The notes under the pieces: generated by a model
What the model saw: the letters and a program-made list of their open reading frames with translations, nothing else
What the model was told of the DNA's origin: nothing
Database searches by the model: none
Made by a program: the position numbers and the translations under genes
Assembly: GCA_020853095.1 (NCBI GenBank)
Contig: JADYZN010000026.1
Coordinates: 1-64,000 of the forward strand
From: Phycisphaerales bacterium
Lineage (GTDB): Bacteria; Planctomycetota; Phycisphaerae; Tepidisphaerales; Tepidisphaeraceae
Direction: 5' to 3'
Length of the DNA stretch: 64,000 nucleotides
In this document: positions 10,921-15,458 of the stretch, piece after piece
Layout of the letters: each line of letters starts with the position of its first letter
How positions within the stretch are numbered: position 1 is the first letter of the stretch

Positions 10921-12117
10921 TCATACCCCGGTTCGCATCGACACCGCCAGACTGATGGATCGTCCATCGGAGCGCTGTCGCGGCGGGGTTTTGGGTTGGG
11001 CGGGCCGTCTTGAAAGTGCGGCGATGGTTTGAATCAAAAACAACACGATCGCCAGCGCCGCCAGCAGTCCCGCCCATTCGCGGCCGCCCCACCATTGGCC
11101 GACATCCGCGATGATCCGCCATGCGACGGCGGCTTCCAGCATCGCGATGTGAAGATAAAAGCGGGGCGAATAATCCATCTGCATGTTCAGGACGGCCGGG
11201 AAAATGATGGGCGCATGGCCAAAGATCATGGCGAAGACGAACCCCAGCAGCACGGCGTGCAGGATGGAATCGTAATGCAACCCCACCACCGGCGCGACGT
11301 GGACCCAACCGGCGGATGTGCCGTGAATCATCGGCAGAACCAGGACGTAAAACATCGCCAGCCCGCCGCTGATCGCCATCCAGAAGTATCCGGAGAGCAG
11401 GCAAAATGCCACGAATCGCGCCAGCCCTTTTTGTCGGATCGTCCGGCGGGCCAGATCATGAACCAGCAGCCAGGCCGACATCAACGGCATCGCCAGCCCG
11501 CTGATCAACCATCCCAGCCCCAGCCACCAGATGCTGAGGATCAACCCCAGGACGTACAAGCCGACCACGATGACGAAGCCTACGTGGCGGCCGCGCAACG
11601 CGGGGAGAAACCGGCTTAATTCCAGCCGTTCGCCGACGATCGTCAACACCAGAAACGCGATCCACCATGGAACAAGATAGGCGATCGGCCGTCCACCCAG
11701 CCACAACGCATTGCCCACCGCCCAGGCGATCGCGCCCAGCGTCATGGTGAGGATGAACATCGTCGGCTGGCGAAAAATGATGCCCGTGAAGACCGCGACC
11801 AAAAACAGGCTGCCGATCAGCAGCAGCCATTGCCCCACCACCGGCGGCAGCCCGACCAGCAGGCTGATTCCTCCCAAGGCGGAGAAGACCGGCGATCCGT
11901 AGGTCCAGAGCTTTCCCAGCGCAACCGACCGTTCCAGGCTGATGACCGTGCCGAGAAACCCGCCGATCATCAGCGCGCCGTGATAGGTGACGGCCCCCGT
12001 GCCGATTTCGGGCCATTGCCAACCCATCCGGAGCAATCCGCCCCACATCCCCGCCAGCAGCAGGATGATGCCGCCCACGAGGATCGGCGCGCGACGGACT
12101 GTTTTGGACAGCGTCAT
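10921..12117 (-). CDS. NnrS-like polytopic membrane protein
   Basis: A 398-residue protein with about ten to twelve transmembrane helices. Histidines within or next to helices (TYHGALMIGGFLGTVISLE, VGLHYDSILHAVLLGFVFAM, IFGHAPIIFPAV) resemble the pattern of NnrS, a haem- and copper-containing membrane protein associated with nitric oxide metabolism. Its place in an operon with a NirK-like reductase supports a role in handling nitrogen oxides. The first ATG is nine bases after the cupin stop. Family assignment is by pattern only; the sequence could belong to a sister family. Confidence 0.65.
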   Translation of the reverse strand: MTLSKTVRRAPILVGGIILLLAGMWGGLLRMGWQWPEIGTGAVTYHGALMIGGFLGTVISLERSVALGKLWTYGSPVFSALGGISLLVGLPPVVGQWLLLIGSLFLVAVFTGIIFRQPTMFILTMTLGAIAWAVGNALWLGGRPIAYLVPWWIAFLVLTIVGERLELSRFLPALRGRHVGFVIVVGLYVLGLILSIWWLGLGWLISGLAMPLMSAWLLVHDLARRTIRQKGLARFVAFCLLSGYFWMAISGGLAMFYVLVLPMIHGTSAGWVHVAPVVGLHYDSILHAVLLGFVFAMIFGHAPIIFPAVLNMQMDYSPRFYLHIAMLEAAVAWRIIADVGQWWGGREWAGLLAALAIVLFLIQTIAALSRRPAQPKTPPRQRSDGRSISLAVSMRTGV

Positions 12118-12126
12118 GGGCCTGCC

Positions 12127-12492
12127 TTATCGCCAGGTTCCGCGCTTAAAATGCTCGGCCAGTTCCTTGTGATCTTCGGGCGTCGGCGGCGGGCTGACCA
12201 CCACCACCGCCACGGTGCGTTGATCGGCCCTGATGCCGCGCGCCTTGCCGGATTCGGCGTACAGCATCGCGCCGGGGCCGGCCTGTTGCAATTCCTGATC
12301 GTCGCTCACCAGTGTCGCCTGGCCTTCGATGATCAACAACGTCAAATCGCTTTTGGGATGATGCACCGGAATGGCCTGTCCGGCTTCCAATCCCACCACC
12401 ATCGTCTTGCTGCGCGGCGTCTGGGCCAGCGTCACCGCCTGAAATTTGTCGGCCGCGAAAGTGGCCTTGTCCTTGATCGACGAAATGATCAT
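12127..12492 (-). CDS. Small cupin domain protein
   Basis: A 121-residue single-domain cupin: VGLEAGQAIPVHHPKSDLTL gives the first motif (two His) and LIIEGQATLVSDDQ the second strand. The second metal-binding motif is weak, so the usual His at its end may be missing. A GGGAG site lies seven bases before the ATG. Cupins of this type in denitrification or nitrosative-stress operons are common but their chemistry is not settled. It may bind a metal or act as a sensor. Confidence 0.75.
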   Translation of the reverse strand: MIISSIKDKATFAADKFQAVTLAQTPRSKTMVVGLEAGQAIPVHHPKSDLTLLIIEGQATLVSDDQELQQAGPGAMLYAESGKARGIRADQRTVAVVVVSPPPTPEDHKELAEHFKRGTWR

Positions 12493-12601: not shown

Positions 12602-12841
12602 TCAGGCTGTTTTACCAATGCGGACGCGCCACACCGAGGGGCCTTGTTCCTGGTAATCCCAGGAGAATTTGCCCGAGTGTTCGGCCGCGAATTGGTAATA
12701 CAACGGCTTGGGGTCGTGATCGTTCACCAGTTCAAACGACTCTCCGCTTTTCAACCCGTGATAGGTCTGGAAGATCGTCGAGTGCCGCTGCGCCGGCGGC
12801 AAAGTGCGAACGTCAATGGTCTTGGCCAATGTCTGTGACAT
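12602..12841 (-). CDS. DUF2249 domain protein
   Basis: A 79-residue protein made entirely of a DUF2249 domain: TIDVRTLPPAQRHSTIFQTY, GLKSGESFELVNDHDPKPLY and FSWDYQEQGPSVWRVRIGK match the family order. DUF2249 proteins recur next to nitrite or nitric oxide reductase genes and fused to haemerythrin or DUF59 domains. The start at 12841 (MSQTLAK) is chosen because an AAAGGAG site lies just upstream; the in-frame ATG five codons earlier contains that site within the coding sequence. The fold resembles TusA-like sulfur proteins, but no conserved Cys is present. Confidence 0.85.
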   Translation of the reverse strand: MSQTLAKTIDVRTLPPAQRHSTIFQTYHGLKSGESFELVNDHDPKPLYYQFAAEHSGKFSWDYQEQGPSVWRVRIGKTA

Positions 12842-12890
12842 TATGGCTCCTTTCATAAAAAAAAATGCGCTGCGAATCGGCCGGCAAACG

Positions 12891-13532
12891 CTACCAGCCC
12901 AATTGTTTCTTACCCTCCGGGGTCATCTTGTCGTGCGACCACTTGGGCTCCCAGACCGTGGTGATCTGGATCGAATCGACGCCGGGGCATCGGCCGCGAA
13001 TGCTCTGTTCGGTGTCGCCGCGGATCTGATCCCCCAGCGGGCAGGCCGGCGTGGTCATCGTCATGCGGATGTGCACATCCCGGCCGACGACTTCCAGCCC
13101 ATAAATCAGACCCAGGTCCACGATGTTGACCCCCACCTCGGGGTCGAAAACGTGATAGAGCGCCTGGCGGACGGTTTCGACATCCGGCGGCGGCTGGTCA
13201 TGGTCGCCCGAACCTTTCAGGATGTGCTTCTGGTCCGGCACGTCAAAAGTGAAACCCGCCGCGCCACCTGCCACCTGTTGATAGTCGATTATCGCGCCGT
13301 TCAGCGATGAGAGGTCCTTGGCCGAACAAACCACCTTGATGCCGTGGGATTCGAAAACTTTGTCATCGTCATACGCGACATCCTCCAGGTCCAGCGAGTA
13401 ACGGCGAAGATGTCCATCCCCGGTGACGCCGACGCGCAATCGTTCCTTGGTTAGATCAAGCTGCTGCTCGGCGACCACCTTGCGAATCTGGTCGGCCGCC
13501 TTTTGTGTCAGTTCTATGCCTTGTCGATCCAT
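12891..13532 (-). CDS. IscA-like domain lacking cysteines fused to a MIP18/SufT-type (DUF59) domain
   Basis: A 213-residue fusion. Residues 1-103 follow the A-type iron-sulfur carrier fold (IELTQKAADQIRKVV, RLRVGVTGDGHLRRYSLDLE, GAAGFTFDVPD), but the three cluster-binding Cys of IscA/HesB are absent: the first position is in the DGHLRR loop and the CGC end is replaced by LKGSG. The only Cys here is C69, elsewhere in the domain. Residues 115-205 are a MIP18/PaaD domain (ALYHVFDPEVGVNIVDLGLI, TTPACPLGD) with conserved C164. The start is the ATG with GGAAG eight bases upstream. It probably helps mature a metalloprotein made by this operon; the first domain may be structural. Confidence 0.8.
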   Translation of the reverse strand: MDRQGIELTQKAADQIRKVVAEQQLDLTKERLRVGVTGDGHLRRYSLDLEDVAYDDDKVFESHGIKVVCSAKDLSSLNGAIIDYQQVAGGAAGFTFDVPDQKHILKGSGDHDQPPPDVETVRQALYHVFDPEVGVNIVDLGLIYGLEVVGRDVHIRMTMTTPACPLGDQIRGDTEQSIRGRCPGVDSIQITTVWEPKWSHDKMTPEGKKQLGW

Positions 13533-13564: not shown

Positions 13565-14656
13565 TTATTCCACCACCAGCAGGCCCATCGCCCCTTTTTG
13601 TCCATGTCCCATCGCATGATTGACAAAGGGAAACTCGCCCGCGTTGTCGCACATCAGGTCAAATCCCATGCCACCGCCGGCGGGGACGGCCCAGGTCTGA
13701 ACCCCGTGAATCGCCGAGGCCGGCGGTTCGCCCAGATACACCGTCTCAAACTGCTCGCCCACAACGTGAAACGAACAAGGCAGCGTCGGGCCGGCGTTCA
13801 CCACCCAGAATCGCACCCGTTCCCCTTTTTTCACCCGGATCGGATCGCGCGAATACTGGTCCGGCCGGCCGTTGAAGGCCACCATGTCCGGCGACACCGA
13901 CAACATCTTGCTGAACACAAACGGCTGGACGCCATGCACGGCCGCCCCCAGGTAATATTCGCTTTGCACCAGCACGAATTCACGCGCCGGCGGCAATGGA
14001 TCCTTTGGCGAGACGATCAACGCCCCGAACATCCCCGCGCCGATGTGCAACAGCATCGGCTCCACCCCGCAGTGGTACAAAAACGCTCCGGCCCGGCCGG
14101 GTTTGAAGGAATAGCTGTGCGATTGACCCATCGCCACGGATCGAAACGCGGTTTTGGGGTCCAGCCTCGCCGCGTGAAAATCCATCGAATGCGGCATCAA
14201 GGTCGTGTTGGTGAGCGTGAAATTGACCGTGTCGCCCACCCGGCAATGAACCAACGGGCCGGGGATGTTGTCCTCAAACGTCCAGGCCGGCACGACCGTA
14301 TTGGGGGAGATGCGCAGCGCCAACTCGGTGGACTTCCAGTTCAGATTCAACACCCCATCCGCCGGCGGCGGAGGCAATTGCGGATCGAACCGCGTGAGCT
14401 TGGCCGATGGCGCCTGCGCCGCGATCTGGGGCGTCACCATGTCGGCCCCGGCGCCAGCGGCGTCACCATGCGACATTCCCGATCCATGGTCCGAACCGTT
14501 GTTCCCTTTTTCGGATTTGTCGGACGATTTTCGGTCGCACGAGGCCAGGAACAAACTCAATCCGGGCACCGCCAACGCCAGCATCGACCCCCGTCGAAGC
14601 AAACCGCGACGGCTGAGCCATGGCAAACGATCCAGATCATCCGAATTGTTCATCAT
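13565..14656 (-). CDS. nirK: NirK-like copper nitrite reductase (two-cupredoxin multicopper oxidase), predicted lipoprotein
   Basis: A 363-residue exported enzyme. Residues 15-40 have a twin-arginine run (SRRGLLRRGS) and a lipobox (LASC40), so it is probably an exported lipoprotein, then a Gly/His/Met-rich linker. Two cupredoxin domains follow. Type 1 copper ligands are H156, C196, H204, M209; type 2 ligands are H161, H195 and H347 (FVNHAMG). D159 in PHSMDFH and H297 in SFHVVG fit the catalytic Asp and His. All ligands for reduction of nitrite to NO are therefore present. It follows the azurin-like gene by 47 bases, a likely electron donor. A related oxidase cannot be excluded. Confidence 0.82.
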   Translation of the reverse strand: MMNNSDDLDRLPWLSRRGLLRRGSMLALAVPGLSLFLASCDRKSSDKSEKGNNGSDHGSGMSHGDAAGAGADMVTPQIAAQAPSAKLTRFDPQLPPPPADGVLNLNWKSTELALRISPNTVVPAWTFEDNIPGPLVHCRVGDTVNFTLTNTTLMPHSMDFHAARLDPKTAFRSVAMGQSHSYSFKPGRAGAFLYHCGVEPMLLHIGAGMFGALIVSPKDPLPPAREFVLVQSEYYLGAAVHGVQPFVFSKMLSVSPDMVAFNGRPDQYSRDPIRVKKGERVRFWVVNAGPTLPCSFHVVGEQFETVYLGEPPASAIHGVQTWAVPAGGGMGFDLMCDNAGEFPFVNHAMGHGQKGAMGLLVVE

Positions 14657-14703: not shown

Positions 14704-15195
14704 CTATTTCACGATCATCCGGCCGTGCATGAAGACGGCGTGGGTGGGAAACGTACAGAGAAAGTCATACTCCCCGGCCGCCGGTGCAACCAATTCGATG
14801 GTCTGGCTTTCGCCCGGCCCGAGGATTTTGGTATGGGCGATCACCTTGTCCAGCAACGAATCGGGAATCTCCCCCTTGGCCTTCAAGTCGGCGGAATTCA
14901 CGTCATTGGCAAAACTCCTGTAATCCTGCCCCGGTTTCAAAATCACCAGGTCATGCCCCATCGTGGTGATGGGCATTTTCCCGACGTTCTCAAATGTGAT
15001 GCGGACTTTCTCCCCCGGATGCACCACAAACCGTGTGATGTTGTAGCGCATGTCATCGTTGCCGGTGATGTGAATGGCCGCAACTCCATCCCGTCGAACC
15101 ACCGGATCATCCCCGGTATTTTCCGATTCGCTCTTAAAGCACCCGACGACCAGAGTCATCGCGACGAAAAACACAGACAAACCAACCCACTTCAT
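14704..15195 (-). CDS. Azurin/plastocyanin-like type 1 copper lipoprotein
   Basis: A 163-residue cupredoxin. The signal peptide ends in a lipobox (LVVGC19), so it is anchored outside the inner membrane. Ligands for a type 1 copper are H81 (TTMGHDLV), C147, H152 and M156 (CTFPTHAVFM), the same spacing as azurin. The segment YRSFANDVNSADLKAKGEI is also azurin-like. As the first gene of the operon it probably carries electrons to the NirK-like enzyme encoded next. Confidence 0.9.
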   Translation of the reverse strand: MKWVGLSVFFVAMTLVVGCFKSESENTGDDPVVRRDGVAAIHITGNDDMRYNITRFVVHPGEKVRITFENVGKMPITTMGHDLVILKPGQDYRSFANDVNSADLKAKGEIPDSLLDKVIAHTKILGPGESQTIELVAPAAGEYDFLCTFPTHAVFMHGRMIVK

Positions 15196-15385: not shown

Positions 15386-15458
15386 TGACCCCGAGGGGAT
15401 TCGAACCCCTGTCGCCGCCGTGAAAGGGCGGTGTCCTGGGCCTCTAGACGACGGGGCC
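15386..15458 (-). tRNA. tRNA-Glu (TTC anticodon)
   Basis: A complete 73-nt cloverleaf on the minus strand. The acceptor GGCCCCG pairs with CGGGGTC, with discriminator A. The anticodon arm CCGCC-CTTTCAC-GGCGG carries TTC, and the T arm is CAGGG-GTTCGAATC-CCCTC in usual form. CCA is not encoded. Confidence 0.95.

Follow-up and report, generated by a model that had tools for sequence, protein, structure and literature searches.

A ligand-less A-type carrier domain fused to a DUF59/SufT domain travels with nitric oxide-associated genes in Phycisphaerae

Our analysis of 64,000 nt of contig JADYZN010000026.1 from a Phycisphaerales bacterium (the whole of this stretch is called the window below) identified a gene in which an A-type carrier domain without any of its three cluster ligands is joined to an intact DUF59/SufT domain. 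Relatives of this fusion lack the ligands as well, and the gene's travelling companions are a nitric oxide (NO)-associated module (DUF2249, cupin and membrane protein) and not nirK. We propose, as a reasonably probable reading, that the protein is a cytoplasmic accessory for maturation or repair of Fe-S proteins in NO-exposed cells, in which the A-type half would serve for docking and hold no cluster. In the window, the gene belongs to a compact same-strand run (azurin, nirK, fusion, DUF2249, cupin and membrane protein, with gaps of 47, 32, 34, 109 and 9 bp) with the following features:

14704..15195, minus strand: azurin-like cupredoxin (TIGR02695 E 4e-20, under the cut-off; Copper-bind in Pfam)
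13565..14656, minus strand: copper nitrite reductase NirK (phmmer E ~6e-53, best PDB matches 3wia/3wkq; TIGR02376 162.7 bits, under the cut-off of 296)
13532..12891, minus strand: A-type/DUF59 fusion gene, 213 aa, read as a single open reading frame with its translation
13224..13532, minus strand: A-type half of the fusion, residues 1-103, with His41 at the first ligand position and the CGC tail absent
12894..13181, minus strand: DUF59/SufT half of the fusion, residues 118-213, with DPE, Cys164 and W-P-W retained
12602..12856, minus strand: DUF2249 protein, COG4309-like (Pfam E 2.1e-31; 98.8% identical in the sister species)
12127..12492, minus strand: small cupin (Cupin_2 E 1.6e-4, under the Pfam cut-off; kept in 8 of 10 NO-type loci)
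10921..12117, minus strand: membrane protein of about 390 aa, the constant partner of the DUF59 gene, without a Pfam family and with invariant His46, His287 and His301

A tRNA-Glu gene lies directly upstream of the azurin-nirK run (15386-15458, minus strand). Aligned to solved copper nitrite reductases, NirK has the His/Cys/Met ligand motifs of the type 1 and type 2 copper sites, and the azurin-like cupredoxin is likely the electron donor.

The initial annotation had placed the fusion at 12891-13532 and described it as an A-type domain that keeps its fold without all three cluster ligands, followed by an intact DUF59 domain. A single 213-aa reading frame does fill that interval, with the correction that it is encoded on the minus strand, and the description of the two domains was borne out. 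Pfam matches Fe-S_biosyn (PF01521) to residues 6-90 (E 5.8e-8, 33.4 bits against a cut-off of 26.3) and FeS_assembly_P (PF01883) to residues 119-189 (E 6.8e-19, 68.4 bits against a cut-off of 23.5), and PF01521 is matched by 11 of 11 fusion members. The fusion scores 51.1 bits with TIGR00049, under the cut-off of 58.8, and 86.9 bits with TIGR02945, the SUF-operon SufT equivalog, which has a cut-off of 143.4; the equivalog cut-off of TIGR03406 is likewise not reached. Compared with solved structures, a 10-sequence profile of the A-type half matched 1nwb (2.5e-11), E. coli IscA 1s98 (4.5e-10) and DsrR 2k4z (9e-7). Because AlphaFold2, run on a two-sequence input, gave a mean pLDDT of only 32.5, the A-type fold is assigned from these sequence profiles, by which the half aligns well to IscA and probably retains its fold.

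Aligning the half to A-type proteins of solved structure places His41 opposite the first cysteine of IscA and shows a tail without any cysteine where IscA carries CGC. Over the 11 fusions the residue at the first-ligand position reads H, H, S, A, H, Y, Q, R, P, P and H, the ligand loop varies freely from family to family, and no Cys or His of the A-type half is invariant, Cys69 alone being nearly so. We considered a new site built on Cys69 and rejected it: the residue is Ser in one fusion, and it occupies a non-ligand position at which Cys is common in canonical carriers. The DUF59 half keeps DPE (residues 130-132), Cys164 and W194-P196-W198, with Cys164 invariant in all 11 fusions. Reading of the fusion protein sequence revealed no signal peptide or other sign of export.

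A first search of the phylum, with one sequence and a strict threshold, found no relative. A profile search covering 397 genomes of the class recovered 11 fusions, all without the three ligands, in this genus (two species), in another genus of the family and in eight genomes of a second family, f104. Ten of these (the NO type), from two Phycisphaerae families, lie in one kind of locus, where the complete cases have the order fusion, DUF2249, cupin, membrane protein; the eleventh (genome G426) is the last gene of a suf operon. With an enlarged profile, the match table places this SUF type in 23 of the 28 f104 genomes, six of which also have the NO type, while SufT is unfused in a seventh f104 genome with the NO type (G515). 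The gene order is sufB-C-D-S-U-fusion in the regions examined, one of which begins inside sufS. The 13 SUF-type proteins that were read are all Cys-less, with the loop GRNxxGF against GGGCSGF and a tail without CGC. Ligand cysteines are thus absent from all 23 fusions read, and this shared layout, in 10 of 10 NO-type and 13 of 13 SUF-type proteins, excludes sequencing error or chance as the source of the missing ligands; homologues that keep the cysteines were looked for, and the fusion homologues do not. Every cysteine (C and CGC) is kept in the canonical A-type carriers that were read from the window's order, and one such carrier is encoded first in the suf operon of the window genome, where SufT is unfused; the carrier function is therefore covered elsewhere.

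Beyond Planctomycetota, the search covered viral contigs, which gave none, plasmids, where 73 records had DUF59-type matches and none of these spanned 80% of the query, and one pattern scan of genome contigs, which picked up one relative. A second Cys-less A-type protein, stand-alone and about 150 aa long, occurs in the window genome (G000:C61:26175-26471, L034) and in the sister species (G400:C133:10174-10464, L035). Its N-terminus resembles a signal peptide, and its gene precedes one for a GDSL-like hydrolase; export would be unusual for a HesB-like domain.

The fusion had also been assigned to a nirK operon. Here it does follow nirK at 32 bp, but this arrangement holds in this genus only, and eight of the ten NO-type loci have no nirK next to the fusion. 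A close NirK is confined to this genus's two genomes. Of the other carriers, one has a 30% match, and the family's third member has azurin and no close NirK. In other Planctomycetota, a DUF59 gene without the A-type domain stands beside the same membrane protein, and proteobacterial plasmids carry DUF59 and DUF2249 together with the membrane protein amid genes for NO reductase, an Rrf2 regulator, hemerythrin, NnrS, NosR and flavohemoglobin (one such locus has no membrane protein). Operons of the relatives include RIC/ScdA, hemerythrin, NnrS, DUF1858, Crp/Fnr and COX1/COX2. One NO-type locus (L048, G515 contig C415) is preceded by a nitronate monooxygenase gene and two radical SAM-like genes and followed by RIC/ScdA and NnrS. 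In three f104 genomes (L050, L051, L052) the operon runs on, with COX2-like and COX1-like genes as well as others for membrane proteins. DUF2249 genes of Haloferax mediterranei rise under denitrification (PMC11218638).

The window genome (96% complete) encodes two COX1 proteins, both apparently oxidases of the aa3 type, and nothing recognisable as NorB. NO from NirK may therefore linger, and the organism, having NirK and azurin, is possibly a net NO producer. One NnrS is encoded elsewhere in this genome (contig C32). A scan for FNR-box-like patterns gave 37 matches against 24 expected, none of them just upstream of the azurin gene.

A tree of the A-type halves separates all fusions from the canonical carriers, and the moderate support for this (91/85) suggests a single origin of the Cys-less half. 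For the DUF59 half, the AU test rejects a common clade of NO-type and SUF-type fusions (p = 0.0007) but does not reject one that joins the NO-type fusions to the stand-alone DUF59 proteins of NO loci (p 0.47); the DUF59 half of the window protein is placed outside the SUF group. Since the two kinds of DUF59 half do not form one clade, the A-type/DUF59 pairing arose, under the model and sampling used, at least two times on the DUF59 side.

What the A-type half does without its ligands can be read in several ways. The initial annotation had suggested a scaffold or a protein that delivers metal by altered chemistry. A scaffold that binds Fe or Cu via His or other residues, or that delivers copper to NirK, could draw on the His in place of the first ligand in this genus and on nirK as the next gene upstream. 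The variability of that position and the lack of any invariant Cys or His across the 11 fusions, however, make a metal role unlikely. Moreover, copper nitrite reductases and azurins act outside the cytoplasm, whereas the fusion protein carries no signal peptide; other carriers have no close NirK (the 30% match apart), and the same layout recurs in the housekeeping SUF operon. We consider this reading very improbable and the gene's link to copper weak. Still harder to credit is that the half is a functionless relic in a decaying fusion. A ligand loop free to vary among families would fit such decay, but purifying selection on the A-type half is strong, with a dN/dS between the genus's two species of 0.081, below that of the DUF59 half (0.142; NirK, 0.089), and the half persists in the ten NO-type fusions, which span two families, and in the 23 SUF-type genomes. 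The combination of a degenerate A-type domain with an intact DUF59 is thus probably not a decaying gene.

A different possibility is that the DUF59 fusion, DUF2249 and the membrane protein make up an assembly or regulatory unit for an NO-handling membrane enzyme, heme-copper or NnrS-like, with no general role in Fe-S metabolism. The DUF59 gene directly adjoins the membrane protein in both Planctomycetota and proteobacteria, the membrane protein has its invariant His residues, and a relevance to NO reductase has been proposed for COG4309, the DUF2249 family (PMC1274295). At the same time, the only COX1 proteins of the window genome are the two that read as aa3-type, with no recognisable NorB; the idea that the membrane protein is an NnrS found no support, its likeness to that family being insignificant (probability 2%); and DUF59 proteins elsewhere act in Fe-S maturation (PMC4982691). 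On balance we find such a unit rather unlikely.

We return to the accessory for Fe-S protein maturation or repair. SufT is involved in the maturation of FeS proteins, with homologues that have one conserved cysteine that is reported to be hyper-reactive (PMC4982691); by family resemblance, the DUF59 half would be the working part of the fusion and would act, as in SufT, via this single cysteine. The A-type half, judged by its residues, would no longer bind a cluster or metal. As it is conserved and yet without invariant Cys or His, a docking domain is the simplest account, and by analogy with DsrR it may have been kept for partners or clients that normally meet an A-type carrier. The presence of the same architecture in a housekeeping SUF operon points to Fe-S biology, and from neighbourhood and homology we infer that the fusion does Fe-S work in the NO operons too; a repair role, like any contact with the membrane partner, is putative. 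One point against this reading is that the true client may be the membrane protein beside the DUF59 gene, possibly as a heme or copper protein. NO damages Fe-S clusters, which would explain a dedicated accessory in a nirK operon, and in the window the protein would serve the NirK operon whose product does this damage. It is conceivable, although we hold this only tentatively, that cluster-less A-type domains are dedicated DUF59 partners, paired with them at least twice (in the SUF operon and in NO-associated operons), in which case A-type carriers and SufT would normally meet and the A-type surface would have a cluster-independent role.

Compared with known systems, the A-type/DUF59 fusion is a new architecture and not a new system. 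By profile, its A-type half belongs to the same family as IscA, SufA, ErpA and HesB and is clearly related to canonical Phycisphaerae carriers, but it is unlike them in having none of the three ligand cysteines. DsrR (PDB 2k4z), to go by the title of the cited work and a sequence match, is similar in having an A-type fold that does not bind Fe-S and in being encoded in a specialised respiratory gene cluster; it would differ in standing alone, within the dsr sulfur-oxidation cluster, whereas the window domain is fused to DUF59 in a nirK/DUF2249 context. The DUF59 half resembles SufT (MIP18) in being complete with one conserved Cys, and N-terminal fusions of SufT to a U-type scaffold or Nfu are known. 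The published catalogue of SufT proteins has nine architectures (U-type, ferredoxin and other partners) plus the Nfu fusion, with no A-type partner (PMC4982691), and we found no A-type/SufT fusion in the open-access literature searched. The neighbourhood genes (COG4309/DUF2249, NnrS, RIC and DUF1858; compare DrpA/DrpB of Thermus) are the same as those known from NO and denitrification clusters, although DUF59 is not mentioned in the DrpAB paper (PMC6282519).

The fusion marks a widely shared and undescribed set of DUF59, DUF2249 and membrane-protein genes in nitric oxide gene clusters. To our knowledge, the exact roles of A-type carriers and of SufT/DUF59 are both unsettled. A natural fusion in which a ligand-less carrier half is paired with two different DUF59 lineages suggests that carriers and SufT/DUF59 cooperate, and it separates the binding surface of an A-type carrier from its cluster chemistry. 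The finding of a carrier domain without its cluster-holding residues in some uncultured planctomycetes suggests that the domain has survived there as a docking part, not as a carrier.
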